Shown piece by piece: positions 2,742-60,246 of a DNA stretch of 64,000 bases. Source of the stretch: a virus; the IMG/VR virus record IMGVR_UViG_3300042430_003505, positions 1 to 64,000 of that record. One strand, given 5' to 3'. The notes under the pieces are model-generated. The model worked only from the letters and a program-made list of their open reading frames with translations. It made no database searches and was not told the origin of the DNA. Position 1 is the stretch's first letter. Each line of letters starts with the position of its first letter. Made by a program: the position numbers and the translations under genes.

Positions 2742-2776
2742 AAATAAACCAAAAATATGTCATTTATCAATTGGGG
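2740..2776 (+). repeat. 37-bp direct repeat, copy 1 (start of MSFINWG gene)
   Basis: The 37 bases spanning the untranslated leader and first six to seven codons of the gene at 2757 are identical to 3331-3367 at the start of the gene at 3348. It indicates duplication or ongoing gene conversion of the shared 5' end. Confidence 0.85.
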
Positions 2777-3329
2777 ACATGAAAGTCCCGAGCAACGTAA
2801 AGCTCGTCAAGAGTGGGAAGATCAAATAATGTTTGAACAGATGTCCTACAGTGCCGCAGTTGTTGCTGCAGCTGCCACTGGTTCAGGTGGACTAAAAAAA
2901 CCTAGTGAATTTGTAGGAGAGGTCGACTGGTTAGTCGTTGCATCAACTGTGTTTACTCCTCCTGGAACCGACAACTATGAGGACTTCGACAACTGGGTCA
3001 CTGACACTTTTACACCTCTACTTGGTGTAAAGAGACTTGTGATAGTTGCTGATTCTGCGAATGCTCACACTCACGAAGAGCCATTTACCGATCTTACGAT
3101 CCAATTATTTAATAGTGTGACCTCTACCTGGACAACAGTATGGTCTTATAACCTCGTAAATCAAAACTATCCAGGCGGTGAAGGCGATGACTACTTTTTT
3201 AATGGTATCGACGTTACCTTTCCAGAGGTTGCATCGGTGACCAAGATCCGACTTACCTCTGATCCTGGCATAGGTCAGACATATCACGATTGGGGTCAGG
3301 ACTCTACACTGTTTAAATTCTATAAATAA
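2757..3329 (+). CDS. MSFINWG-family modular protein, beta-sandwich-like C-terminus, 190 aa
   Basis: Residues 1-45 form the shared module: MSFINWGHESPEQ, a charged helix, MFEQMSYSAA, then an Ala/Gly-rich linker. The rest (about 50-190) is unrelated to the other family members and rich in aromatic strands (VDWLVVASTVFTPPG, LTIQLFNSV, TTVWSYNLV, VTKIRLTSD), suggesting a carbohydrate-binding or jelly-roll-like beta sandwich. Four such proteins occur here, two in tandem and one after the capsid genes. I infer a common virion-docking N-terminus with an exchangeable, perhaps ligand-binding, C-terminus. Confidence 0.7.
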   Translation: MSFINWGHESPEQRKARQEWEDQIMFEQMSYSAAVVAAAATGSGGLKKPSEFVGEVDWLVVASTVFTPPGTDNYEDFDNWVTDTFTPLLGVKRLVIVADSANAHTHEEPFTDLTIQLFNSVTSTWTTVWSYNLVNQNYPGGEGDDYFFNGIDVTFPEVASVTKIRLTSDPGIGQTYHDWGQDSTLFKFYK

Positions 3330-3336: not shown

Positions 3337-3367
3337 AAACCAAAAATATGTCATTTATCAATTGGGG
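3331..3367 (+). repeat. 37-bp direct repeat, copy 2 (start of MSFINWG gene)
   Basis: Identical to 2740-2776. See that entry. Confidence 0.85.
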
Positions 3368-4256
3368 TAGTGAGAGCCCAGAACAATTAAAAGCTCGTCG
3401 AGAGATGGAAGAACGTATGATGTTTGAACAGATGTCATATAGTGCAGCAATAGCTGCGGCAGCCTCCGCTGGCGGAAGCCTAGATCCTTTACGAGGTTTA
3501 TTTGGAGTAGGAGCAGACGGTCTTATCTATAACCTAGGTAGAGGTGAGGCAAATTGGCCGTTTGATTCTGAGTCATTTCCTAGCTCGACAGTAATCACTC
3601 TAAACACGGATGATGATTGCTTATATGCGGCAGTCGATTTCGATGGGGAAGTATTTTTTATAAAGATCGACAAGACGACTAGGAAATGTTTGTTTTTTGA
3701 AAATGACATCAGCGATTATGTAACAAAGGGATCAAGCTCTCTGTATTATGAAGGTGATGGACGTTTTATCTACTTAGATAACTTTATCAAGAAGAGCGAT
3801 GTTTCTAGTATTATTCGAGTGACGCTAACCGAGTCGACAGCTGACGCTACTGAGGTTTCCGAAGTAGACTCGGTTGAAAAAGGATACTTGCTTAGAAACC
3901 TCTTCATATATGATGGAACTCCTTGGGCGATCGCGTACTCTGGACCAACCGTAATAATCGGGCCATTCGATATTGATGAGGGTGACTTTGTTTATTCTAA
4001 CCTTCTTCTTCCTTCTCCTAGCGATACTAGAGTGGAGGAAATACTTGCAGTATTCAGCACAGTCGAATATAATGGCACAGTATACTCAGCGATTGTTTTT
4101 GCAGATTCTGAACTGAGCGGTGATCCAAATATTGGACTCTTTAAAGTTGATACTGAGACTGGTGGTGCACTTGCTCCATACTATGTCTCATTCATCAAGG
4201 ATCTAAACCTTGCAGGTCATGGAGAAGTGCCAGTATTATCAATATTTAGTTACTAA
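3348..4256 (+). CDS. MSFINWG-family modular protein, propeller-like C-terminus, 302 aa
   Basis: Residues 1-45 repeat the family module (MSFINWGSESPEQ, MFEQMSYSAA, Ala-rich linker). The C-terminal 250 residues contain recurring units of the type D.DCLYAAVDFDGEVFFIKIDK, GDGRFIYLDNF, GTPWAIAYSG and GTVYSAIVFAD, which look like beta-propeller blades reading out repeated strand-turn-strand segments. The function is unknown. A sugar- or protein-binding virion decoration is my inference. It directly follows its paralog at 2757 and has its own late promoter. Confidence 0.7.
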   Translation: MSFINWGSESPEQLKARREMEERMMFEQMSYSAAIAAAASAGGSLDPLRGLFGVGADGLIYNLGRGEANWPFDSESFPSSTVITLNTDDDCLYAAVDFDGEVFFIKIDKTTRKCLFFENDISDYVTKGSSSLYYEGDGRFIYLDNFIKKSDVSSIIRVTLTESTADATEVSEVDSVEKGYLLRNLFIYDGTPWAIAYSGPTVIIGPFDIDEGDFVYSNLLLPSPSDTRVEEILAVFSTVEYNGTVYSAIVFADSELSGDPNIGLFKVDTETGGALAPYYVSFIKDLNLAGHGEVPVLSIFSY

Positions 4257-8436: not shown

Positions 8437-8871
8437 GTGTTAAAACACGTGCTTGAAAGCGAGGAGTTTTTTAATCAAGAACTCAATTGGAAAGGGATCA
8501 AATTTGTAAGGCTAGAGTCTGAGGGAAACTTAATGAATCTGGGAGTCATCTTACCTGGAGAAAGTGTTCCTAATCCTGGAATAGTCCTAACCCTTCAGGT
8601 GATTCATGATTACTTGTACCAGCCACATATCGCACTGGATGAAGATCTTCGAGGTAAAGACTTGGCAGTCAAGATATATCGTGCACTGGTCGATAGGTTA
8701 GGCCATCTCTATTCAGGAAAGGGTCGTCGTCAGAATCCAATGGTGGACAGAGTATGGGCAAAACTAAAGATGGACCCTACTGTAGATTGTGCAAGTAGCT
8801 CAATTGGAGATGCATGCTGGACACTAGACAATCCTGATGGAGAGGATATCCGAGCATTTATCGAAGGTTAA
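8437..8871 (+). CDS. late hypothetical protein, possibly GNAT-like, 144 aa
   Basis: GTG start set by the late promoter spacing. The N-terminus MLKHVLESEEFFNQEL is a weak CTS-like match. The body has the order strand-strand-helix seen in acetyltransferases: PHIALDEDLRGKDLAVKIYRALVDRLG followed by NPMVDRVWAKL, but no clean acetyl-CoA (Q/RxxGxG/A) signature. The call is weak. It overlaps the convergent gene downstream by 14 bp. Confidence 0.55.
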   Translation: MLKHVLESEEFFNQELNWKGIKFVRLESEGNLMNLGVILPGESVPNPGIVLTLQVIHDYLYQPHIALDEDLRGKDLAVKIYRALVDRLGHLYSGKGRRQNPMVDRVWAKLKMDPTVDCASSSIGDACWTLDNPDGEDIRAFIEG

Positions 8872-10075
8872 ATCGGCTCCATTCTGAAAAACTTAAGACT
8901 TGATTTAAGCTCTCGCTAACCTGTCGAGAATCAACAAATATGTTTGCTGCGTCTTCTCTATTGATGATGAACGATGTGTCCCAGCCGCCAGTTCGTACGT
9001 ATGGAAACTCACTCGCTCTTGAATCAATCGCGATATCTGTCACGGTGCCTATGTTTACGAGCCAATCGCCGCTTCCCATCTCCTTGGCTAAAGTCACTTT
9101 ATCTCCCTTCTTGATCACTCTGTCAATCTGTATCGGAGTATTGAATACTGGCTTTTCCAACCAGTGCAACCATTTCTTACCGAGCTTGATCGCGATCTCG
9201 TTGCCAGTAGCTCCCTTTATTTGTCGTGATTGAACAATTGGCATGGCGCCCCAAGTATTAAACTTTTCGTTTCTTTCAAGCAACCAAACCTTGTCTGGAG
9301 TGACGTTCATCTGTCTTGGCACCGTCTCAAGACTAAATGAAGACTCTCGATTTGGATCAGGAATCAATTGAAAGGTCTCCTGTTGAGAGACTGTTGATTT
9401 ATTAATAAATTCATCCAACTGATCTCTAGAATCTCCTGAACTAATGTTTAGGTGGATAATCGAGATGCCTGCTGGAGTAAGGATTACTGAGTGACGTTTT
9501 TCTAGTTCTTCCTTTGAGTCAAGCTTAATTGAAAAGACTCTAGAGATCTTGGCAAGTTCGGCTTCCCTGTCCGCTAACATGTGTTCGATTGACTTATTGA
9601 TTAGGTATGCCTTTTCAGAAGGCTTATTACCATCCACATCATATAGTTTAATTGTAGAGACTTGTGAGCCTATCGTAAAGATCCAAAAACAGGTACCAGT
9701 ACGAAGCACTTCTTTTCCAGTAGATTTATCGGTCCTTTCGTATACTCTAAAGACTGGCAAAGCTTCTTTACCACTGGTCAGAGTCACCTTAGGTCGACCC
9801 AATCTAATGATACCAATGTAACCCGGCTTGATATCAGTATCGCTAAACACTTGACTCTTATCTGGATCAGCGATATTAGATAGTGCCTCTCTAAAAAACT
9901 GTTGGGTTTGTGAGATGTCAGAGCTAGTAGCTTCTACTTTTTCTCCCTTAGTATTAATAAAACCAATTACCTCCAGCTTAGCGAGCCTAGTGTTAGCTCT
10001 CTCTAAGTAGTGTTCTCCGCCCTCTCTCTTTAGAGTTATTGCCTCGTTTATGAAACTTTGAAAGTCCTTTATCAA
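8858..10075 (-). CDS. CTS protein of unknown function, 405 aa
   Basis: N-terminus MIKDFQSFINE then Ala: an almost ideal CTS with h-x-E cut after residue 11. The body is mixed alpha/beta with several predicted strands (YIGIIRLGRPKVTL, LPVFRVYERT, GTCFWIFTIG) and a stretch WLVNIGTVTDIAI. The extreme C-terminus VLSFSEWSRFN again resembles the CTS core. No enzyme motif recognised. Late promoter 10087-10102 lies upstream, back to back with the one for the next gene. Confidence 0.65.
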   Translation of the reverse strand: MIKDFQSFINEAITLKREGGEHYLERANTRLAKLEVIGFINTKGEKVEATSSDISQTQQFFREALSNIADPDKSQVFSDTDIKPGYIGIIRLGRPKVTLTSGKEALPVFRVYERTDKSTGKEVLRTGTCFWIFTIGSQVSTIKLYDVDGNKPSEKAYLINKSIEHMLADREAELAKISRVFSIKLDSKEELEKRHSVILTPAGISIIHLNISSGDSRDQLDEFINKSTVSQQETFQLIPDPNRESSFSLETVPRQMNVTPDKVWLLERNEKFNTWGAMPIVQSRQIKGATGNEIAIKLGKKWLHWLEKPVFNTPIQIDRVIKKGDKVTLAKEMGSGDWLVNIGTVTDIAIDSRASEFPYVRTGGWDTSFIINREDAANIFVDSRQVSESLNQVLSFSEWSRFNLR

Positions 10076-14326: not shown

Positions 14327-15148
14327 ATGTCGTTTATCAATTGGGGTCATGAAAGCCCAGAACAGAAGAAGATACGCAGGAGGTTTGAGGAAGAACAGGC
14401 GATCTTTGAACAGAGAGCCGCTGCTGTTTCTGCGGCCGCTGCAGCTGCCGCTGGAAGTTCAATTAAACCTGGAATAAGCGTGCCAGCATACTGTGGAGGA
14501 GAAAAAATAGTACTTGACTTTGTAGCTATTGATTTTGATCTCTTAACAAGTAAAAAGTTTAAATTAACTGATTCTGACCTTGATAACTATGATAACTTAC
14601 AAGAGGACTTAGATACTCAGTTTAGGGCGGACCGTAATCAATACCTTAAGCGGCAGAATGCAAATAGATTCTTCCAAGAGGTAGGGCGAGTAAGCTCGAT
14701 CCAGCCAGAACTCCCATTGCCTACTCCAACTATCTATCATAAAGGTTTGACAATGACTTCTCCTTTTACTCGACGTCTTCCGGTGACAGAGTATCCGGAA
14801 TGGACCGAACTCAAAGGGGATCCTGAATCAAGCGCTTCTCAAAAGATGCCCAACGTAGAGTACATAAATTACCTAGAAGAGGTTGAACTGATCTTGGATC
14901 TGCCTTCTAGTGGATCACCGGGTGATGCGGTTTGGTGTATCGAAGATTCGACTTTTTATGCATGGGATCAGGGGGCTGGAGAGTTTTCAGCAGAGTTTCA
15001 TGAGCTGTGGCTCGAGCCGATTCGTCAGGCACAAAACTCTACTCGTGACTCGGCAGCGAAAAGCAAATTTGAGTTGATTCTCGCGTCTCGACCTTTCATG
15101 GCTGCCGCCAAGTATCTATTGGATTATAAACTAAAAAATAAATTTTAA
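14327..15148 (+). CDS. MSFINWG-family modular protein, 273 aa
   Basis: Module residues 1-48: MSFINWGHESPEQ, a charged helix RRRFEEEQAIFEQ, and an Ala-rich run. The C-terminal domain (about 50-273) is alpha/beta and differs from the other three members: VLDFVAIDFDLLTSKKF, later PVTEYPEWTELKGDPESS, and WCIEDSTFYAWDQGAGEFSAEFHELW. No known fold recognised. Third of the four members; it heads an operon with a small helical protein and an HExxH protein. Confidence 0.7.
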   Translation: MSFINWGHESPEQKKIRRRFEEEQAIFEQRAAAVSAAAAAAAGSSIKPGISVPAYCGGEKIVLDFVAIDFDLLTSKKFKLTDSDLDNYDNLQEDLDTQFRADRNQYLKRQNANRFFQEVGRVSSIQPELPLPTPTIYHKGLTMTSPFTRRLPVTEYPEWTELKGDPESSASQKMPNVEYINYLEEVELILDLPSSGSPGDAVWCIEDSTFYAWDQGAGEFSAEFHELWLEPIRQAQNSTRDSAAKSKFELILASRPFMAAAKYLLDYKLKNKF

Positions 15149-25453: not shown

Positions 25454-26191
25454 GTGAAGATAGAATCGATTAAGATAATCGATGGTAAGAATCGATGGAG
25501 TGAGTCTAGGAAAAAGTTAGTTCATATAGTATTGGATTTAGGCAAATATGAAGAATTGCCTTCAAATAAAATACCTGGATTCTATGAAAGACTTAAGAAA
25601 TACATTCCGACTCTACAGAAACATCGATGCTCAGTAGGAAGAGCTGGAGGATTCTTTAAAAGGGTAAAAGAGGGTACATGGATGGGTCATATTATTGAAC
25701 ACATAGCCCTAGAACTTCAGACTCTTGCTGAAATGGAAACTGGATGGGGTAGAACAAGAGGAGTAAAAGGAAAGATTGGGATATACAATGTTGTTTTTGA
25801 ATATGTGGATGCAGACTGCGGAAAGACTGCGGCAAATGAAGCGATTCGGGTGGTTAAGGAAATAATCGCTGATCGTGATCCAAAGATAGATGGAATAGTC
25901 TCAAAATTAAAAAAGATGAAGAAAAAAAGATTAGACGAAGGTTTTGGTGCTATTTCAATGGAACCAGATACGGCAAAACGAATACTTGAACCTGATACCT
26001 CACGTGCAAGCGCTATGATGTTTTATTCGGGATCATCTGGGACCGTTCCAACTCACTGGAATAATTCTCCGTTCCTTGCGGGAAGAAGTGGGGGCAGCGC
26101 ATTCGGATCTAATCCTAGAGCAGACAAAAAGACTAGAGTAATGTCATACCAAGAATTTGTGGAGGCTCATAAGAAGTTTACGAATAAATAA
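25454..26191 (+). CDS. cyanophycin synthetase N-domain-like protein, 245 aa
   Basis: GTG start. Residues 1-135 match the N-terminal domain of cyanophycin synthetase CphA closely: RWSESRKKLVHIVLDLG, LPSNKIPGFYERLKKYIPTL, KHRCSVGRAGGFFKRV, EGTWMGHIIEHIALELQTLA and GWGRTRGVKGKIGIYNVVFEY. The ATP-grasp and Mur-ligase-like catalytic domains of CphA are absent. After a Lys-rich linker there is a low-complexity segment and a C-terminal MSYQEFVEAHKKF, a CTS-like motif at the wrong end. The N-domain normally binds the growing polymer; here it may bind a poly-amino-acid or be repurposed as a virion protein. Function unproven. Confidence 0.75.
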   Translation: MKIESIKIIDGKNRWSESRKKLVHIVLDLGKYEELPSNKIPGFYERLKKYIPTLQKHRCSVGRAGGFFKRVKEGTWMGHIIEHIALELQTLAEMETGWGRTRGVKGKIGIYNVVFEYVDADCGKTAANEAIRVVKEIIADRDPKIDGIVSKLKKMKKKRLDEGFGAISMEPDTAKRILEPDTSRASAMMFYSGSSGTVPTHWNNSPFLAGRSGGSAFGSNPRADKKTRVMSYQEFVEAHKKFTNK

Positions 26192-26961: not shown

Positions 26962-27696
26962 ATGACGGAACTACAGTTAATCACCGATATAAATGATGAG
27001 ATCACCTTCTCGGGTGCTTTACCTTACGGTCTTCCAGAAAAGGAAATCAAACGTATCATTGAAAACGATTCAAGATACTTTTGGGATAACTGGAGACATG
27101 CTGTTGAGAGCAGATATCTGCTTCTACCTTTAGAGCTATTTCAAAATGCTACGTTTAAGAAGTTTAGACAAATCCAATTACCTGACTGTGTACAGTTCGT
27201 TGTCGATTTTAAGGAGGCAAAGGGAGGATCCATCTTTGGGACAATTGATAGAGACTTTGCCGAACAGAAATTTATAGGTTCGGAGCTATTTTTAACTCCC
27301 TTCATTGGGGAGAGCATCATGTATAGGACAGTAATGTTCTCGTTTCTAGACATAACTAAAGCAATGGTTCTAGATACGATTGCGTATGATTATAATAAGA
27401 ACAGTAAACTTTTAGGTGTGGTAGGTAGAACTCCTAAAACAAATGCAGTAATTAAAGTATTTAAAAAACTGGACCAGGACAAGTTATTTGAAGACGAGAT
27501 GTTTCAACGATATGTTCGTGCTCATGCAAAGGTAAGACTTGCACATATGCTCCAGTCATTTGACTACACTTTACCTGGAGGAGTCAAGGTAAATTATCAA
27601 AATATCGTTACCGTTGCTGAAAAAGAAATGGAAGACGTTAAGGCGATGATGAAGGGCGAAAATACGCCCGATTGGTTTTATCTTACTAGACAATAA
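26962..27696 (+). CDS. putative virion structural protein, 244 aa
   Basis: No CTS. Mixed alpha/beta, with RIIENDSRYFWDNWRHAVESRY and a C-terminal EKEMEDVKAMMKGENTPDWFYL. It directly precedes the gp25-like baseplate gene in the same transcript, so a tail or neck role is likely; I could not match a specific T4 protein. Confidence 0.6.
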   Translation: MTELQLITDINDEITFSGALPYGLPEKEIKRIIENDSRYFWDNWRHAVESRYLLLPLELFQNATFKKFRQIQLPDCVQFVVDFKEAKGGSIFGTIDRDFAEQKFIGSELFLTPFIGESIMYRTVMFSFLDITKAMVLDTIAYDYNKNSKLLGVVGRTPKTNAVIKVFKKLDQDKLFEDEMFQRYVRAHAKVRLAHMLQSFDYTLPGGVKVNYQNIVTVAEKEMEDVKAMMKGENTPDWFYLTRQ

Positions 27697-27705
27697 TTAT
27701 TTAAT

Positions 27706-28083
27706 ATGGCAAGCCTTAGAGACTTTTATACCCGAACTGATGAGGATCCTAAATACTTAGGCGATCGTTTAGAGATTAGTGATGAATTAGAGTCTGCGAT
27801 ACAGCAAGTAAAGATGACTCTATTTACCCGAAAGGGAGAGGTTCTAGGAGAACCCGACTTTGGAATAGAATTAGATAATTATCTTTTTGAATATTCGATC
27901 GATCCTAGTCGATTGGGTAAAGATGCAACTGGTCAAATCAATAAGTATGTAGCAGAAGCACGAAAAAGAAAGATAACTGTTTCTCCTTCACTATATCCGG
28001 ATGACAAGGCCAATCGTGACATTTTCGTACTTCTTATCGACATACCTGAGACAAAGAACTCCTTTGCTCTATTCTACGACTAA
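27706..28083 (+). CDS. gp25-like baseplate wedge protein, 125 aa
   Basis: Residues about 25-70 (ELESAIQQVKMTLFTRKGEVLGEPDFGIELDNYLFE) show the gp25/W family pattern I..I..lL.T..GE....P.FG..L...lF, with the EPR-like core as GEPDFG. Gp25 initiates sheath assembly on the baseplate wedge. Length fits T4 gp25. Overlaps the convergent gene by 4 bp. Confidence 0.85.
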   Translation: MASLRDFYTRTDEDPKYLGDRLEISDELESAIQQVKMTLFTRKGEVLGEPDFGIELDNYLFEYSIDPSRLGKDATGQINKYVAEARKRKITVSPSLYPDDKANRDIFVLLIDIPETKNSFALFYD

Positions 28084-28501: not shown

Positions 28502-30226
28502 TTAAAGTTGACCTTCGCCAGAAGTCTCGCCTCCGTCTTTTACCTCACTACCTCCGCCTTCAGCGGCAGCTGCAGCTGGAGCAGCGGCTGCACCTCCTCC
28601 ACCTGGAGCAGCACCACCTGGAGCAGCACCACCTGGAGGTGGCGGCATCTCTTCAGACTCTTCCGCATCCGGTTTCTGATCGAACCATGCAAGGTTTGAC
28701 TTGATTTCGGAATCTGTCATTTTTAATTCTTCTCTGATCAAGTATTCGGTAGAGAAATATGGAGTACCGTCGTCTTTCATGACTCCTTTTTTGGCTTGGA
28801 ACGAAGCTATTCGTTTGGCTTCTATCTCGTTCTTCTTCATTTCCTCAAACACGTTATCGTTGTAATACTTGATCCCAATAGCGTTATTAAACTTATAGTC
28901 TTCTGCAAGTTCTGGAAAGTCTAGACACATTTGCAAATACCAAGGTTTTACCATCATCTCTGAAAAAGCAGTTCGTAACCTATTAATAAATTTTTGATAA
29001 CGAACTTCCTCCCTAGTGATACCCTCAGCGTTTAGAGTAAATGCACCCATTCCAGATTGGCCTTCCCATCTTGAATAAGGAATCTTGGAGTCCATCTTTA
29101 ATTTTTTATAGAAATAGTTTAGGAGCTCTGATCCTGAAAGGTTTGGACCTGGCGTCTGTAGGGCTTCTATTTTTACCTGCTGATTCTGATCGTTTACTGG
29201 CAGGATGTAGTTTTTATAGAATAAGATATTTGGTTTACCATCAACATTAAGCTCTCCGGAATCTCCGTTAAAGTAGATGTCTTCCTTAAACATGTTTAGG
29301 AATTCACGAACATCTTCTTGACCCTTTTGAAAACTTTTACTTCCAATCGGTACAGTTGTTGTTAATCGAATTGGAGCATTCATAACATGCCAAATAACTT
29401 TACTATGTTCGATTATTCGAAGTAGGTTAAAGGATCTGATTAGACGCTCAACAAAACTTACTCGTTTTGTTCTAAAATGATTGGCATATGAAATATAGAT
29501 TACTTGAGAGTCATTAAGAACCCTGGTTGAACCAGTCTGCTGGTCGTATTGTAACCATTGTAAAAATATCTTGCCCTTAGCATCTTTCTGTAACTGAGGA
29601 GCTATGCTGGCGGGATCCAATTCCTTAAATCCTATTATCTCTTTAGGTTTATCTAAGTTATCATAGATGATCTCAAAAGAAAGGTGGCCTTCGACTAAGA
29701 ATTGGAAAGCATACTGCCAGGCTGATATTCCTTCTCCAAAGCTCCATGCATTATAGATACGTTCAAAGTTATCATGATACTTTTTAAGTACCTTTTCCTG
29801 AAAGTTTAGACGTTCCTCTTTGGTGTCTCCTCGATAGAGAATCTTTCCAGTAAGGTCCTTTGCATACACAAACCTTTGCTCTTCATCATATACGATCATG
29901 TCATCAACAATGGTCTCAAGAATAAACTCAATCTCACCATTTGCCGCAACGTCTCTTAGTCTCTCTCTTTTTACCACATAGTCTAACTGAAAAAATGCAA
30001 TGGCTTTAGTTCTTAATTGTGATGTAGTATCTGAGATTGCCATCGAAAACTTAAGTAGCTCATCGTTTGCATTGAGTCTAGAAGTCCTAGACTGTAGCTG
30101 ACCCTCAATAAAACCAATTGCCTGTGAGTTTCTAAGCAAAAGGTCCTCGTGTCGAGTACCAAACTTACTGAGGCTCGATAAGGTACCGTTTGTTTTTCTT
30201 CCTGATGTGTCTAAGAATCCACTCAT
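28502..30226 (-). CDS. portal vertex protein (gp20-like), 574 aa
   Basis: Shows gp20 landmarks: LVEGHLSFEIIYDN followed by IIGFKELDPASIAPQL, then RVSFVERLIRSFNLLRIIEHSKVIWHVMNAPIRL corresponding to the T4 LKPWNQLRMLEDALVIYRLTRAP stretch, KEDIYFNGDSGEL, and the crown-proximal KVEALQTPGPNL-type sequence followed by KMDSKIPYSRWEG. Length is slightly above T4 gp20 (524 aa as I recall), with a Gly/Ala/Pro-rich C-terminal tail. It forms the dodecameric DNA gate. Sits in a minus-strand operon with 30228 and the gp4-like gene. Confidence 0.9.
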   Translation of the reverse strand: MSGFLDTSGRKTNGTLSSLSKFGTRHEDLLLRNSQAIGFIEGQLQSRTSRLNANDELLKFSMAISDTTSQLRTKAIAFFQLDYVVKRERLRDVAANGEIEFILETIVDDMIVYDEEQRFVYAKDLTGKILYRGDTKEERLNFQEKVLKKYHDNFERIYNAWSFGEGISAWQYAFQFLVEGHLSFEIIYDNLDKPKEIIGFKELDPASIAPQLQKDAKGKIFLQWLQYDQQTGSTRVLNDSQVIYISYANHFRTKRVSFVERLIRSFNLLRIIEHSKVIWHVMNAPIRLTTTVPIGSKSFQKGQEDVREFLNMFKEDIYFNGDSGELNVDGKPNILFYKNYILPVNDQNQQVKIEALQTPGPNLSGSELLNYFYKKLKMDSKIPYSRWEGQSGMGAFTLNAEGITREEVRYQKFINRLRTAFSEMMVKPWYLQMCLDFPELAEDYKFNNAIGIKYYNDNVFEEMKKNEIEAKRIASFQAKKGVMKDDGTPYFSTEYLIREELKMTDSEIKSNLAWFDQKPDAEESEEMPPPPGGAAPGGAAPGGGGAAAAPAAAAAEGGGSEVKDGGETSGEGQL

Positions 30227-44796: not shown

Positions 44797-46755
44797 ATGA
44801 GTTTTGAAGCATACCTAAGAAACTGGCTACGTCTTAATGAAGCCAAGGACGACGACACAGCAGAAAAGAAAGAACCTAGTGATCAGCCTTCTGGAATGGA
44901 TGAACTCAGTACCATCATTGAGTCTGGAATAGGCGGCGAGACTAGCGATAAGATTGCTAGGACTACTTCATTTGAATCTATTGAACAGGTATTACAAAAA
45001 CTTGACATATTACTATTAGAAAAAATACAGTCTAATCCAGAACTACAGAAGATCCTAATGGCAATGGTAGTTCCTGGCAAGGTTGAGTGGTTGGGCGAAT
45101 ACTTGACCAAATCAAAAAAGAGCTTGAGTGCGCTATCTACTGATAAAAAGAAGGTGGACCCAAACCAAAACTTTGATGGCTATAAGAGGTTCCTGATTAG
45201 GGAGGCAGACGTAAAGAGTAGGATCTATAAGATGCACCTCATATTTAAGTATGTGACTGAGGCACCTGACCTGGATAAAGACACAAATATCCTACTTGCA
45301 CTAAAACAAATCGGGGCGCCTTTAACTGTATCGACTGAAGAGGGAGCACCGACTGTGAAGATTGGTAAGATTGGGAGAATCGACAATAAAGTAGAATCCA
45401 ATGAGTTTGAAATGATCGGCTCTAACGGAGAGAATAAGATAGTGAAGAAGGAGGAACTTAAGTCCATTCTTGAAAAAAATCCTGAATTGGCTGAACGTGC
45501 AAAATCGATGGCTACCGAGTCTCACAAGAAAAAGCTGAATAAGTTATTACAGAGAACAGAGGAAGCTATTAGAAAGGAGATTATGAACTCCCTAAATGAC
45601 ACTAAAAACATCATCTCAGATCTACCCAATGACGAGACTAGTAGAGAAAAGTTAGAGGTGGATTGGAAGCCTCTGATCGACGCCCTAGGTTATTCAAAGT
45701 TCTTTGCTGCACCAATCAAGGAGAAGGAGAAGGAAATCACCAAGACCGAGAGACCAAGTCTTAGAAAAAAGAACAGAATCAAGGAGAAACTAATGAATGC
45801 TCTTAACTCAGCATTGCTTCCTCCAATGACTAATGGCGAGATCTCTGAACCTGGTGGAGATTACTATAAACTATTTAAAAAGCTAGAGGAGCAAAATGCG
45901 GCCTGGCTTGAAGCTTCCATTAAGGAGTCATTGACTGATGTTGGTCGAATCGCACAGTTTAATACAGCAGCCAGAAATGAGGAGAGCTCGCTAGAAGAAA
46001 ATCAGTTAGCCTACCTATATGCATGTAGCGCATGGATAACTAAATATGTTGAGAGCGAGGTTGACGGAGAACTATCAAAGAGGGACACGGATAATGCATT
46101 AGCAAAGATTAAGTCGATCACCCAAGCCAAAGAGCGCGAGATCAAGAACTATTATCTCTCTAAGGACTTTAATATGAAGAACTTTAAAGGTATACAATTA
46201 AAGCCCGATCTTAGGTTACCTCTTTATCAAAAGGTTAGACTTGCAGTTAGCGAAGCAGACCGAATAGCTGAGAGCCCATTAAAGAACCTACTTAAGGGGC
46301 TAGGTCAAATCATAGTAGGACTCTTTTCAACGGTACCTGACAGAGGAAATGCAGAACTCGCTAGAAAGAATGCTGCCCAAAATCAAGCGATATTCAATGG
46401 AATATTTAGCATCATTAAAGGAGGAGTATACGCAGTAAGCAAGCAGGCTGGGCGAGACCTTGAAAAAGGAGTGAGCAAAGTCACTAATAAGCTAAGACTA
46501 GACGCAGTAGGCTTGACACCTTATGAAAAAGGAGAAGGTCCTAAATTCTATAAGTCAGCTGAAAAGAAGACAAATGAGGATGCTGGGATAGGTACCTCTC
46601 CAGGAACGGCGATGCAAACTCCAGGGAGCCTACCAGACAATACAATGGATACACTATCTCTAGCAGGGCCAGGAAGAAGAAAGAAAAAGAAAACGGGCTC
46701 TCAAATGGTAAAAAGAGTGTCAAGCTTTAAGGATTTCTTGAAAGGAGACGATTAA
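44797..46755 (+). CDS. large CTS protein, 652 aa
   Basis: MSFEAYLRNWLRLNE then Ala: CTS with cut after residue 15. The largest CTS protein here. Long charged helices (EKKEPS, RAKSMATESHKKKLNKLLQRTEEAIRKEI, KEKEKEITKTERPSLRKK) suggest extended structure. The last 35 residues contain a Lys cluster (RRKKKKTG) and VSSFKDFLKGDD, a CTS-like motif. No enzymatic motif. A large internal core protein, loosely analogous to T4 Alt by size and packaging, is possible. Confidence 0.65.
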   Translation: MSFEAYLRNWLRLNEAKDDDTAEKKEPSDQPSGMDELSTIIESGIGGETSDKIARTTSFESIEQVLQKLDILLLEKIQSNPELQKILMAMVVPGKVEWLGEYLTKSKKSLSALSTDKKKVDPNQNFDGYKRFLIREADVKSRIYKMHLIFKYVTEAPDLDKDTNILLALKQIGAPLTVSTEEGAPTVKIGKIGRIDNKVESNEFEMIGSNGENKIVKKEELKSILEKNPELAERAKSMATESHKKKLNKLLQRTEEAIRKEIMNSLNDTKNIISDLPNDETSREKLEVDWKPLIDALGYSKFFAAPIKEKEKEITKTERPSLRKKNRIKEKLMNALNSALLPPMTNGEISEPGGDYYKLFKKLEEQNAAWLEASIKESLTDVGRIAQFNTAARNEESSLEENQLAYLYACSAWITKYVESEVDGELSKRDTDNALAKIKSITQAKEREIKNYYLSKDFNMKNFKGIQLKPDLRLPLYQKVRLAVSEADRIAESPLKNLLKGLGQIIVGLFSTVPDRGNAELARKNAAQNQAIFNGIFSIIKGGVYAVSKQAGRDLEKGVSKVTNKLRLDAVGLTPYEKGEGPKFYKSAEKKTNEDAGIGTSPGTAMQTPGSLPDNTMDTLSLAGPGRRKKKKTGSQMVKRVSSFKDFLKGDD

Positions 46756-55508: not shown

Positions 55509-57485
55509 TTGTCAAATCTAAAATCAGCACAAACTAACACTAACGATTGGGTACTAATCGTTGAAAATGTAGGTGAAAAACTTCAAGTAAGGGATTCATC
55601 TACGACTGGCACAGTCCTCGAAGGAGTATGTGCGGTATTCGGTCAGATGAATAACAATCGCCGAGTATACGAAAAAACGGAATACTTACCTCACCTTACC
55701 TATCTTCAAGAAAAGATTAATAAGCGTCAGTTAGTAGGAACGGTTGACCACCCTCAACATTTCGAACCAAAATTAAGCGAAGCTTCACACATTATTGAAG
55801 GCTTAACATATGACGGTGGAGATAAAGTATACATTAAAGTAAGACTCCTAGAAAACACTCCACATGGTAAATTAGCGAAAGCATTACTTGACGGAGGAGT
55901 TCAGTTATCAGTTTCTTCAAGAGCAGCTGGACAGGTAAGTGAGAGTGGTTATGTAAAATTACAGCGAATCTTTACCTATGACTTAGTAGGAGAACCTGGA
56001 TTTACTGATGCAATTCTACGTAAAACAGTTAGTGAATCACTAAAGAATGACTTTTCAATGATTACTGAGAGTTATAACTCGATGAAGGAAAACTCTTTTA
56101 TTCATAAGTCTGGACTAATGGATATTTCAGAAAATTTAAACTTTGCAGATAATTTTAAAGTCTATAAGATAAATAAATTAGAAAATGGTTCAGGAACACA
56201 GTTCCGAGGAACTTTGCAAGAACAAAAAAATAACAACACAATGGCCGAGTTTGTAACAAAAGAACAAATGGACAAATATTCAGAAGTTCTTAAAACACAA
56301 TTCAATGGAATTAAAAAAGAACTTAAAAATCACAAGTCTGTTTTGGAGTCTGCTCAATCAGGTAATGGATCAACTAATTCAGAATTAGTTGGATTCGTAA
56401 ATTATTTAGCAGAATCTCTAGAAGGAGTGATTAATTTCGCTGATTATCTTTCTCACAAACTAAACGAGTCAGTTAAATATACTGAGCACGTTTCTGAGAC
56501 AGTTAACAACTCTATCGATTATTCTTCTTATTTAGGAGAAAAATTGAACCAGTCAGTTAACTATCAAGATTACCTTTCAACTAAGGTGAACGAGTCAATC
56601 AACTACGCAGAGTATATTAAAGAAAATGTAAACAATTCTATTAAGTACCAAAATTATTTGGCTGAAGAACTAGATAAAGGATTACAGTATGTTGAATACG
56701 TTGCTGAAGGAACTAATCGTTCTATTGAGTTCGGAGAATATCTTTCAGAAAATATTAACTTAAACAGAGATTACTCTCAATATGTTGCTGAAAAATTAGG
56801 ACAGTCTATTGGATACTCTGAATATTTAGCTGAATCTCTAGGAGACGGAAACCATGTAGGTACTCGAAATGTTTTAGGTAAAGTTTCTAAATTAAATGAA
56901 TCTAATTCAATTGACAATCTAATCTCTAAGGTTGATCAAGTGATTACTGAAGTAAACGATAAGTCATCTAAAGCAGTTCTTGAGAGCAAGTATCCTTTCT
57001 TAAAGGTTATGGGAGAAGCAAACAAGAAAGTTTTCTTTAACTTACAATCAGACACTAAACAAGCTATCGTTGAAGCTCTTAACGGATCAGTTTGGTTTAA
57101 CGAAAACGACATCGTTGGTATCATGGAAGCTGTTGTAAATCACAAAGAACAAAATATTCCTACCTATATCAGATTCATGCCAGTAGAATACAAAGCTACT
57201 TGGAACGAAATGAATGAAAACGAAAAAAGTAAAGTTCACGCAAAAGCACAGCTTTATACAGTAAACACTCCATACCAAGTTAAAGCATTTTGGGATGATA
57301 TTGATATGAGAGGAATCAATGAAAGAATTGAAACACAAAAATATAACACAAAAATAACGCAACAACTCAACGAGAGCCAAAGTACAGAAGGCTTAATACC
57401 TGTAAATCAGGTTGTTGAGATGCAGAGAGGTTACTCTCAAGGTTACTTAGAAACAATGTTGAGAAACGCTGGTTCTAGATTGTAA
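55509..57485 (+). CDS. prohead protease-scaffold fusion (gp21 plus gp22-like), 658 aa
   Basis: TTG start. Residues 1-190 are a gp21-like serine protease: His81 in GTVDHPQ, Ser136/137 in LSVSSRAAG, and Asp158 in YDLVGEPG as the likely triad. Residues 245-400 hold about ten tandem 14-residue repeats (..Y[LV].E.[LV]N.SI.Y, DNA 56431-56841), then a helical C-terminus. Several KLNES/KVNES sites within the scaffold fit h-x-E self-cleavage. In T4 protease and scaffold are separate proteins. An internal ATG at 56241 may also give the scaffold alone. This enzyme is the likely processor of all CTS proteins in this window. Confidence 0.88.
   Translation: MSNLKSAQTNTNDWVLIVENVGEKLQVRDSSTTGTVLEGVCAVFGQMNNNRRVYEKTEYLPHLTYLQEKINKRQLVGTVDHPQHFEPKLSEASHIIEGLTYDGGDKVYIKVRLLENTPHGKLAKALLDGGVQLSVSSRAAGQVSESGYVKLQRIFTYDLVGEPGFTDAILRKTVSESLKNDFSMITESYNSMKENSFIHKSGLMDISENLNFADNFKVYKINKLENGSGTQFRGTLQEQKNNNTMAEFVTKEQMDKYSEVLKTQFNGIKKELKNHKSVLESAQSGNGSTNSELVGFVNYLAESLEGVINFADYLSHKLNESVKYTEHVSETVNNSIDYSSYLGEKLNQSVNYQDYLSTKVNESINYAEYIKENVNNSIKYQNYLAEELDKGLQYVEYVAEGTNRSIEFGEYLSENINLNRDYSQYVAEKLGQSIGYSEYLAESLGDGNHVGTRNVLGKVSKLNESNSIDNLISKVDQVITEVNDKSSKAVLESKYPFLKVMGEANKKVFFNLQSDTKQAIVEALNGSVWFNENDIVGIMEAVVNHKEQNIPTYIRFMPVEYKATWNEMNENEKSKVHAKAQLYTVNTPYQVKAFWDDIDMRGINERIETQKYNTKITQQLNESQSTEGLIPVNQVVEMQRGYSQGYLETMLRNAGSRL
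56168..56185 (+). promoter_or_regulatory. candidate internal late promoter
   Basis: GATAAATAAATTAGAAAA inside the protease-scaffold gene, 56 nt before an in-frame ATG at 56241. Good match to the late octamer but longer spacing than elsewhere. Confidence 0.4.
56241..57485 (+). CDS. possible nested scaffold protein, 414 aa
   Basis: In-frame internal start MAEFVTKEQMDKYSE at residue 245 of the fusion, right where the protease domain ends and the helical scaffold begins. Downstream of a late-promoter-like box. By analogy with lambda C/Nu3, where scaffold is produced from a start inside the protease gene. No direct evidence. Confidence 0.35.
   Translation: MAEFVTKEQMDKYSEVLKTQFNGIKKELKNHKSVLESAQSGNGSTNSELVGFVNYLAESLEGVINFADYLSHKLNESVKYTEHVSETVNNSIDYSSYLGEKLNQSVNYQDYLSTKVNESINYAEYIKENVNNSIKYQNYLAEELDKGLQYVEYVAEGTNRSIEFGEYLSENINLNRDYSQYVAEKLGQSIGYSEYLAESLGDGNHVGTRNVLGKVSKLNESNSIDNLISKVDQVITEVNDKSSKAVLESKYPFLKVMGEANKKVFFNLQSDTKQAIVEALNGSVWFNENDIVGIMEAVVNHKEQNIPTYIRFMPVEYKATWNEMNENEKSKVHAKAQLYTVNTPYQVKAFWDDIDMRGINERIETQKYNTKITQQLNESQSTEGLIPVNQVVEMQRGYSQGYLETMLRNAGSRL
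56431..56841 (+). repeat. tandem 42-bp coding repeat (14 residues) x about 10
   Basis: Consecutive 14-residue units of the form (S/Q/A)(E/D)YLxEKLNxS(I/V)xY, for example SSYLGEKLNQSVNY, QDYLSTKVNESINY, AEYIKENVNNSIKY, SQYVAEKLGQSIGY. Two heptads per unit with Tyr every 14 residues, giving a long coiled-coil rod in the scaffold. Confidence 0.9.
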
Positions 57486-57513: not shown

Positions 57514-59172
57514 ATGGCACGTACTAAAATTTTCAAACGTTCAAGCGACAATCGCTTAGCGAACACATGGCAGCCGATTTTAGAAGGTTACGGTGCTGAT
57601 GTTGCTAAGACTCCATGGTTAGCTGAGTATGCTCACAACCACGCGATCTTTGATAACACTACACCTATCTTCGAGCAAACGACTCCAGGTGTATTTTTCC
57701 AAACTCCAGGTTCTCTTGGTGGTTTTATGGGGAACCCATCAGCTCCAACATCAGCAATGACTCCGTTCACTGCAGGTGCTAAGAATTCTTTCTCAGCTGA
57801 TGCTAACGGTTCAGGTGATAAATTTCCATCACTTTTACCAGTTGCTATTCAAGTAGCAGCAAAAACTATTGGTTTTGACCTAGTTCCAGTTATCCCTATG
57901 GATTCTCCAGTTGGATTCCTTCCTTACTTGGATTATCTATATGCTGGCGGTAGAACTTCTACTGGTAACTTCGATCCTTATTTGGTTAAGTTAGAAGGTT
58001 TAACATCAGATAGCTTCGCTGTTGCTCTTACTCCTGGTGATGCAGTAGCTATTGTTCCTGCTGGTGATTTCACAGCAGAGTTCGTTGGTTATTCACGTGT
58101 AGACGGTACAATAATCATCAAGATCACAGACGACGGTTCAGTTGACGGCGCTACTACTGCTGCTGCAGAGTATGTTGGTGCAGCGATTACTATCGATGGT
58201 AACGCCCTTGTTGTTGGTGCTGCATGTACTGGAGTTTCTCTAGTTTCTGCATTAGAAAACCACATCTCTGGTTTCACTTCAGTATCTGATGCAGATTACG
58301 CAACTACTCCATTCAATGGTTCTTACCTTCCTTCTACAGGATCTGTACCTGGATCAATGAAGAGAGAAGCTGGTGAAAACTCTAAATTCCGTCAAATGGG
58401 ATTAAGAATGTTCACTAAGTTTGTTGAGGCTGAGACTGACCAAGTTTCTATCTCTGCAACTGTTGAGCAGATCCAAGACTTGAACAGAGTTTGGAACTAT
58501 GACGTTATCTCTATGTTAGAGAACGTAGCGGTTAATGACTTGGCTCAATCAATCAACAAAAGATTAGTTGACCGTGTATTACAATTAGCTGATGTTCACT
58601 CTACAGAAGTTAACTTAGTTGAAGGTGGTGGTGGTGTTATTACTGACCTTGACTTGACTGCTGGTGGATTTGATAACACTTCTACATTACAAAGAAGATT
58701 AGTTACTAAAGTTCTTGAAATGGCAAACTTGATTTACCATAGAGGACGTTTCGGAGCTGGTACTTTCTTAGTAACTAATGGACGTGTTGCTTCTGCAATG
58801 GCTGATGTTGCTGGTTACTCAATCGCGCAAGTTCCAACTGATATGGGTGGAGTTGCAGGTAACCTTTACCCAGCTGGTAAAGTTTATGGAGTACAAGTTT
58901 ACGTTGATCCTAACATGGCTTGGGGAGACTCAAGAATCATGATTGGTCGTAAAGGTGCTGACGAAGAGCCAGGTGTTAAATTCATGCCATATATCATGGC
59001 TGAATCTCTTCAGACTATTTCTGAAGGTACATTCTCTCCAAAAATCGGTATGAAATCAAGATACGCGATTACTGAAGCTGGATGGCATCCTGAAACTCAG
59101 TACATTAATATTAATGTTACTGGAGCTGCTCTTGGAGTTCTTACAGGTTCAAATGTACTAGTAGGTATCTAA
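57514..59172 (+). CDS. major capsid protein (gp23-like), 552 aa
   Basis: N-terminal TWQPILEGYG matches T4 gp23 KWKPLLEGEG, and FDLVPVIPMDSPVGFLPYLDYLYAGG matches FDICGVQPMNSPTG...RAVYG. C-terminal features (RFGAGTFLVTNGRVASAM, NLYPAGKVYGVQVYVDPNM) fit the HK97-like fold of gp23. PWLAE at about residues 34-38 is a candidate maturation cut. Expected at over 900 copies per head. It follows the protease-scaffold by 28 nt and is followed by a terminator. Confidence 0.95.
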   Translation: MARTKIFKRSSDNRLANTWQPILEGYGADVAKTPWLAEYAHNHAIFDNTTPIFEQTTPGVFFQTPGSLGGFMGNPSAPTSAMTPFTAGAKNSFSADANGSGDKFPSLLPVAIQVAAKTIGFDLVPVIPMDSPVGFLPYLDYLYAGGRTSTGNFDPYLVKLEGLTSDSFAVALTPGDAVAIVPAGDFTAEFVGYSRVDGTIIIKITDDGSVDGATTAAAEYVGAAITIDGNALVVGAACTGVSLVSALENHISGFTSVSDADYATTPFNGSYLPSTGSVPGSMKREAGENSKFRQMGLRMFTKFVEAETDQVSISATVEQIQDLNRVWNYDVISMLENVAVNDLAQSINKRLVDRVLQLADVHSTEVNLVEGGGGVITDLDLTAGGFDNTSTLQRRLVTKVLEMANLIYHRGRFGAGTFLVTNGRVASAMADVAGYSIAQVPTDMGGVAGNLYPAGKVYGVQVYVDPNMAWGDSRIMIGRKGADEEPGVKFMPYIMAESLQTISEGTFSPKIGMKSRYAITEAGWHPETQYININVTGAALGVLTGSNVLVGI

Positions 59173-59194: not shown

Positions 59195-59224
59195 AAAGAG
59201 GATTCGAAAGAGTCCTCTTTTTTG
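59195..59224 (+). terminator. terminator after the capsid gene
   Basis: AAAGAGGA/TCCTCTTT stem with a 10-nt loop and trailing T run, directly downstream of the gp23-like gene. Confidence 0.85.
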
Positions 59225-59232
59225 TTTATGGA

Positions 59233-59248
59233 GATAAATAATAAAAAA
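59233..59248 (+). promoter_or_regulatory. T4-like late promoter
   Basis: GATAAATAATAAAAAA, 28 nt before the ATG at 59261; the ORF's earlier Met at 59222 lies before it and is not the start. Confidence 0.75.
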
Positions 59249-59260
59249 CTTATAGAAATT

Positions 59261-59629
59261 ATGACAAGTTTAATGTCAACATTCTTAGGAATACAATCTC
59301 AATTTAAAGTGTTTCATTGGCAGACACAATCTTATGCTAAACATCAAGCATATGGTGGAATATATGATACACTTAGTGAATTATCTGACGATTTTATGGA
59401 AATATACATGGGAAAATACGGTCGAGTAGCCCTAGAGGGAGATACTGATTCTATCTTATTAGGTAATATTGGAGAAGTAAACATAGAGGAATTCCTGGAC
59501 ACTATTGTAGAATTCTTATTAAGTTTTAATCATAAGCTAGATGGTAACAAGGACAGTGATCTCTTAAATCTTAGAGATGAGATGCTAGCTGCAATTAATA
59601 AGCTTAAATACTTATTAACTCTAAAATAA
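59261..59629 (+). CDS. Dps/ferritin-like (DUF5856-type) protein, 122 aa
   Basis: FKVFHWQTQSYAKHQAYGGIYDTLSELSDDFMEIYMGK fits the Dps pattern HW...G..F..LH..y...y..l.e..D...E, with His and Asp/Glu positions of the ferroxidase-type site. Four-helix bundle expected. Start at 59261 set by the promoter. Such proteins protect DNA and bind iron; in phages, the virion or host-phase role is not known. It lies between the capsid gene and an MSFINWG gene. Confidence 0.68.
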   Translation: MTSLMSTFLGIQSQFKVFHWQTQSYAKHQAYGGIYDTLSELSDDFMEIYMGKYGRVALEGDTDSILLGNIGEVNIEEFLDTIVEFLLSFNHKLDGNKDSDLLNLRDEMLAAINKLKYLLTLK

Positions 59630-59640
59630 TTTTAAGAAAG

Positions 59641-60246
59641 ATGTCATTTATAAATTGGGGACACGAGACACCTGAACAATTACAGGCTCGTAAAAAAATG
59701 GAAGATACTCTTCTTTTTGAACAGGCAGCATATAGTGCGGCAATGGCGGCAGCTGCCGCTGCGGGATCAAGCGCACCACTTAGTACATACATTGTGACTA
59801 TCGATACTGCATGGCTATATCCAATAGCTGATATTGACTATGTTCTTGAAACTACTGAGATTAACTTTGTACAGGAAGGAAATGATCTTATTTTTAATAC
59901 ACTAGGCGATCTTACTGATTTTTACGATGAGGTATTTATTAAAACATCTGAGAGTCAGCCAGTAGGGAATGTTGGATATTCACTTGGAGTAGGTACACTA
60001 TTGTTAGAAAAGAGAAAATCTCTTAATTTAAAACTTAGTACTGGAGAAAAGGTTGTTACGTGGAGATTATTTGAACAATTAACAAATCAAGAGGACGTAC
60101 TTAGTCCAGGAAATTCGCCAGATGGCACCATTGGATATGGTTCTATCTACAACGATTATGATCTAAATGGAATACAAGATCCAACTAATGCAAGCCCGCC
60201 TCCTGCATATTCAGATCCACTCAGAATTATTAAGTATATTGATTAA
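59641..60246 (+). CDS. MSFINWG-family modular protein, 201 aa
   Basis: Module residues 1-45: MSFINWGHETPEQLQARKKMED, LLFEQAAYSAAMAAAAAAGSS. The C-terminal 150 residues are beta-rich (YIVTIDTAWLYPIADIDYVLETTEI and LNLKLSTGEKVVTWRLFEQ) and not shared with the other members. It follows the Dps-like gene by 11 nt in the late capsid-side transcript, so it is likely produced with the virion proteins. Confidence 0.7.
   Translation: MSFINWGHETPEQLQARKKMEDTLLFEQAAYSAAMAAAAAAGSSAPLSTYIVTIDTAWLYPIADIDYVLETTEINFVQEGNDLIFNTLGDLTDFYDEVFIKTSESQPVGNVGYSLGVGTLLLEKRKSLNLKLSTGEKVVTWRLFEQLTNQEDVLSPGNSPDGTIGYGSIYNDYDLNGIQDPTNASPPPAYSDPLRIIKYID

Follow-up and report, generated by a model that had tools for sequence, protein, structure and literature searches.

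Why huge tailed phages should carry one piece of a bacterial cyanophycin synthetase (CphA) is the question raised by ORF 25454–26191 (+), which starts with GTG and encodes a 245 amino acid protein. The stretch of viral DNA analyzed here (the window, 64,000 nucleotides) is identical, base for base, to positions 1–64,000 of a 176-kb contig (G001). In a preliminary description, the ORF had been read as a captured CphA N-domain without catalytic domains, reused for binding only.

A CphA N-domain joined to an unrelated tail

Profile searches placed the N-domain match far above chance: residues 25–138 match PF18921 (E = 8.5e-44; score of 148.7 bits, cut-off 27), and residues 2–158 match positions 1–154 of TIGR02068. 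Because only these N-terminal 154 positions are matched, with a score (178 bits) far under the whole-protein cut-off of 850, the protein is not a full CphA1. A phmmer search of the PDB gave SuCphA1 and TeCphA1 as the nearest solved structures, with 7lg5 matched at E = 4e-39 (~51% identity over 138 residues). In addition, an AlphaFold2 model built with phage and bacterial relatives as input (mean pLDDT of 93–98 per ten-residue block over residues 1–160) superposes on SuCphA1 (7txv) with Z = 26.5 and an rmsd of 1.1 Å over 159 residues. Both the profile, above the curated PF18921 cut-off, and the fold are those of a CphA N-domain, which confirms the similarity first described:

25454–25912 (+): CphA N-domain, residues 1–153, a predicted zinc endo-cyanophycinase (PF18921, TIGR02068, model against 7txv)

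The tail (residues ~163–245) is unrelated to CphA; most of it is disordered, and a helix (RVMSYQEFVEAHKKFTNK) lies at its C-terminal end. Neither of the synthetase domains, G (ATP-grasp) and M (Mur-ligase-like), is present, and a search of PHROGs gave no match for the protein.

The zinc site is retained in the phage copies

Most CphA1 N-domains harbor a Cx19HxxEH zinc site (C59, H79, and H83, with E82 as the base) and cut cyanophycin internally, chiefly to (beta-Asp-Arg)4; the isolated N-domain is active in trans and confers primer-free synthesis, and primer-dependent TmCphA1 has none of the four motif residues (Sharon et al., 2022, PMC9262961). The activity of the SuCphA1 N-domain was slow as measured, and granules were largely resistant (PMC9262961). 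"Without catalytic domains" is correct for the G and M domains and incorrect for the N-domain, whose hydrolytic active site has been published.

In an alignment to SuCphA1, the window protein keeps H57, C59, S60, F67, R70, H79, E82, H83, E87, G97, R100, T101, and Y111 (Y110 in SuCphA1). Two substrate contacts are changed (Y14 to R14 and E90 to T90), and A96, a backbone contact in SuCphA1, is T96. Two short segments hold the zinc ligands and the general base:

25622–25633 (+): HRCS, comprising H57 (network), C59 (third zinc ligand), and S60 (substrate contact); one-to-one with SuCphA1 and invariant in 12 of 12 phage copies
25688–25702 (+): HxxEH motif H79-I-I-E82-H83, zinc ligands and general base; one-to-one with SuCphA1 H79, E82, and H83 and invariant in 12 of 12 phage copies

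Conservation and phylogeny were analyzed on 12 distinct phage domain sequences of 56–99% mutual identity. All 13 catalytic or contact positions selected for the comparison are identical in the 12 sequences, including the full set that identifies an active N-domain (Cx19HxxEH plus H57, F67, R70, E87, and R100), whereas of 32 further positions conserved in bacteria only 19 are kept (Fisher p = 0.005, which is indicative only, as the rows are related sequences and several of the other kept residues also lie near the site). With four phage sequences the same test was not significant (p = 0.13); significance was reached with twelve.

To judge from the alignments, the phage retains the one hydrolytic domain of CphA1 and none of its synthetic ones. 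Since every phage copy keeps the zinc ligands, the general base, and most of the substrate contacts, a predicted cutter accounts for the retained residues better than a binder does, and the earlier argument from a domain without catalysis to a binder is probably wrong. A domain serving only to tether a head protein to cyanophycin, to a granule, or to some other poly-amino acid would agree with the polymer-binding helices of the CphA N-domain (PMC9262961); nevertheless, binding does not require the zinc ligands, the general base, and the second-shell residues to be kept so strictly, and the phage model superposes worse on TmCphA1, the protein in which all four motif residues are absent, than on SuCphA1. 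We consider a pure binder improbable.

Distribution of the domain and the predicted host

The gene recurs in other phages. A broad alignment search of IMG/VR identified the domain on 19 viral contigs, including contigs of 137, 176, 262, and 436 kb; earlier scans with narrow patterns had found it on 5 contigs only. Exactly one N-domain, above the PF18921 cut-off, was found in each of the nine phage records searched, and no ORF carrying the rest of CphA was found in the domain-bearing phage records inspected. In INPHARED, neither the whole protein nor the tagged L140 copy had a match, and the domain alone gave chance-level matches only (E = 4–9). A BFVD/UniProt entry from an uncultured Caudovirales phage (A0A6J5PU94, 245 amino acids) is 80% identical over its full length; its name, "Cyanophycin synthase-like N-terminal domain-containing protein", derives from the domain only, and we saw no functional interpretation of it.

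In the tree, all the phage domains group together with full support (100/100), and the branch that bears them is long (0.74). Their nearest bacterial N-domains are ~50–60% identical, mostly from Bacteroidota, and nearly all of those examined belong to a full-length CphA where the contig allowed this to be seen; the genome scan used phage-derived patterns and kept the best 80 matches, which favors close relatives, and other sources are possible. Between the window and its relative L003, the N-domain has a dN/dS of 0.16, which points to purifying selection. Given intact ORFs and an active site that does not vary among diverse huge phages, it is hardly credible that the domain is a passive, functionless remnant of a captured gene.

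From the relationships of both the phage and its captured domain, we infer a Bacteroidota host. An S51 cyanophycinase gene adjoins cphA at most sampled Bacteroidota cphA loci, with an Asparaginase_2 gene also present at some, and a cyanophycinase was found in 100% of CphA1-bearing Bacteroidota genomes surveyed (PMC10206079). No Peptidase_S51 cyanophycinase was found in the five phage records searched. This family (CphB, PF03575) also degrades cyanophycin, but is an exo-enzyme unrelated to the phage domain. The host enzymes bear on a further possibility, namely that the phage domain cuts chains that prime the host CphA1 and so promotes synthesis of the storage polymer, in line with the primer-free synthesis that the isolated N-domain gives in trans (PMC9262961). 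However, the sampled Bacteroidota CphA1 proteins have an intact N-domain motif, which would make extra priming redundant, and storing polymer in an infected cell brings no obvious benefit; such a role seems very improbable.

Gene neighborhood, fusion point, and head genes

The ORF, placed among packaged-protein genes in the preliminary description, lies in a capsid/baseplate gene region with the following neighbors:

26962–27696: head-tail adaptor-like gene
27706–28083: gp25-like gene
28502–30226: portal-like gene, most similar to portals of huge phages and Lak phages

Relatives L006–L012 have, at the same locus and in the same gene order, a gene encoding a protein of 91–93 amino acids. In the window and in L003, an in-frame fusion places the N-domain upstream of this 91 amino acid protein:

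25928–25942 (+): fusion point and putative prohead-protease site R-L-D-E162/G163, cut after E162 (RLVE/GFG and RLVE/GYG in relatives)
25940–26188 (+): most of the 91 amino acid protein, a separate gene in L006–L009 (74–79% identity to the stand-alone genes, same syntenic place)

The window junction reads KKKRLDE/GFGA and the 91 amino acid protein of L006 starts MRLKRLVE/GFGA, while the capsid proteins of the window phage and two relatives have an N-terminal ...[IV]LE/GYGAD. T4-like prohead proteases cleave after glutamate in a motif of the x-x-E type (PMC5694885). Given this specificity and the similar motifs at the capsid protein N-terminus and the L006 start, we propose the junction as a putative prohead-protease site. 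Both the protease and the capsid protein are encoded in the window:

55509–57485 (+): prohead (head maturation) protease, T4 gp21/S77 type, 658 amino acids (PF03420, E = 1.4e-10; phrog_207, E = 3.9e-34)
57514–59172 (+): major capsid protein, T4 gp23 type, with N-terminal ILE/GYGAD motif (PF07068, E = 3e-35)

The window phage has the S77 prohead protease that goes with internal head proteins of the T4 type. Among domain-bearing records, most of which are fragments, the protease scores above the cut-off in only some; it was absent at that level from six further contigs, with one weak match in the 436-kb contig. The window protease has a long C-terminal part past its S77 domain, possibly a scaffold fusion, and a DUF5856/phrog_858 gene ("starvation-inducible transcriptional regulator", 59222–59629) directly follows the capsid protein gene.

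Terminal tags on the domain and on other proteins

Every domain copy with known ends adjoins a tag resembling the T4 capsid-targeting sequence (CTS); the L133 domain starts at a contig end and was left out of this count. Three architectures were found.

First, in L134–L144 the stand-alone domain carries an N-terminal MKYLxxYxLFE(S/A) or close variants of it, and many neighboring genes in L138–L140 begin with similar sequences.

Second, in L004, L005, and L128/L129, the sequence ESIRRILREE or a close variant comes straight after the domain. This tag is present in nine G002 genes, including the domain gene, and starts other genes in G002 and around L128.

Finally, in the window and L003, RL[DV]E/G[FY]G follows the domain, with an extra C-terminal MSYQEFVEAHKK. 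The window protein ends as follows:

26141–26188 (+): C-terminal CTS-like helix MSYQEFVEAHKKFTNK (helix 232–243 in the model; other window-phage proteins have similar tails)

The MSYQEFVEAHKKFTNK helix resembles a T4 CTS, in agreement with the CTS-like end first described on the unrelated tail, and candidate tag sequences for capsid targeting are MKYLKSYKLFES and the C-terminal MSYQEFVEAHKKFTNK. We know of no T4 precedent for a whole domain upstream of the tag, as seen in the window, L003–L005, and L128.

Of 166 window-phage proteins, 13 have a tag-like motif within their 30 N-terminal residues, against a mean of 3.4 for internal windows (maximum of 8 in 200 draws). The tags recur across proteins, with tag-like motifs enriched at the N-terminus in the window phage; their likeness to the CTS is one of short motifs. 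The slot that holds the tagged domain in L134–L137 and L141–L144 is occupied in the window phage by a different protein with a similar start, MKHLLTYQQLFED. This protein (G001 132646–133320; L111 12646–13320, outside the window) begins (M)KHLLTYQQLFEDATQ and had no Pfam match, and the arrangement suggests that cargo is swapped while a similar tag is kept. Nor did Pfam searches with other tagged cargoes produce a convincing match. Judging by their sequences, the recurrent terminal tags look like a general cargo-tag system.

Further recurrent sequences were observed. In different huge phages (G001, G002, L138–L140, and L128), FxxFxNE, MKYLxxYxLFES, MNLQESIRRILREE, and MKxxIxLTESDLTRIVKRVI occur on many unrelated proteins. 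C-terminal tails that resemble the end of the query protein (LSFSEWSRFNLR, SSFKDFLKGDD, LSFSQFINS, and MNFSDFNR) are found on the products of window genes 8858–10075 (-) and 44797–46755 (+) and of G001 153031–153498 and 165265–167097. Four window genes (2757–3329, 3348–4256, 14327–15148, and 59641–60246) have in common the N-terminus MSFINWG(H/S)E(S/T)PEQ and may form a paralogous or tagged family.

The internal proteins of T4 and other T-even phages are a diverse injected counter-defence set with only the CTS in common, and IPI is injected (PMC3012670). As with the CTS-targeted, gp21-matured T4 proteins (IPI-III and Alt), the phages described here combine terminal tags on unrelated proteins, an S77 protease, a gp23-type capsid protein, and x-x-E junctions; they differ in that the cargo resembles a storage-polymer enzyme, that the tag may follow the domain or be C-terminal, and that packaging is a prediction. 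The parallel supports packaging and falls short of proof.

The T-even proteins also make it conceivable that the metallopeptidase site now acts on a different host or phage peptide, as counter-defence or as some other hydrolase, and the long branch of the phage clade and the changed contacts Y14 and E90 would be consistent with such a shift. By contrast, the conserved cyanophycin contacts S60, R70, G97, T101, and Y111 argue for cyanophycin as the substrate, and we judge a redirected enzyme quite unlikely. An enzyme that is active on cyanophycin and frees Arg and Asp, but is made in the infected cell and left unpackaged, with the tags reflecting another localization or simply the head-gene neighborhood, would have the same invariant active site, and the link between tags and capsid consists of resemblance and the presence of the S77 protease. 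Against this stand the three architectures in which the domain is repeatedly coupled to a terminal tag and the presence, at one locus, of another protein with a similar start, which make an unpackaged enzyme unlikely in our view.

Proposed function and significance

The best explanation, which we favor with slightly less than even confidence, is a head-packaged and injected cyanophycin-cutting enzyme. It draws on the computed homology, fold, complete zinc site, purifying selection, single clade, tag association, and presence of an S77 protease and gp23-type capsid protein. A CphA1-like N-domain would have been captured by huge tailed phages and maintained as virion cargo. Through its capsid-targeting-like tag (in the window, a 91 amino acid fusion partner with a C-terminal tag), it would probably co-assemble into the prohead, where the phage S77 protease may release the domain after E162 (RLDE/GFG). 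Injected with the DNA, the domain would use its zinc site (C59/H79/H83, base E82) to make internal cuts in host cyanophycin, (beta-Asp-Arg)n, leaving short fragments. These cuts would create new ends for the host exo-cyanophycinase, which together with dipeptidases could supply Arg and Asp for phage synthesis. Somewhat more tentatively, we extend this to a widespread family of huge phages that packages and injects a stand-alone endo-cyanophycinase by means of interchangeable terminal tags serving as general cargo slots.

The interpretation of the locus shifts from a binding domain without catalysis to a stand-alone cyanophycin-cutting domain that is probably virion cargo. The closest known system is the CphA1 N-domain itself (PF18921; 7txv, 7lg5, and 7wae), described as a "cryptic third active site": the phage domain is 46% identical to it in the structure alignment and has in common with it the Cx19HxxEH zinc site and most substrate contacts, whereas it has R14/T90 in place of Y14/E90, and phage-specific segments or tags are attached where CphA1 continues into its G and M domains. 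No phage-encoded cyanophycin enzyme was found in the open-access literature searched (subscription journals and preprints were outside this scope).

If the proposed explanation is true, the CphA N-domain exists naturally as a stand-alone hydrolase, which would be useful for cyanophycin processing, and the arrangement of tag and cargo would provide a sequence rule to predict injected proteins of huge phages. It would also mean that phages mine the nitrogen stores of their hosts directly and perhaps begin to do so within minutes of infection.
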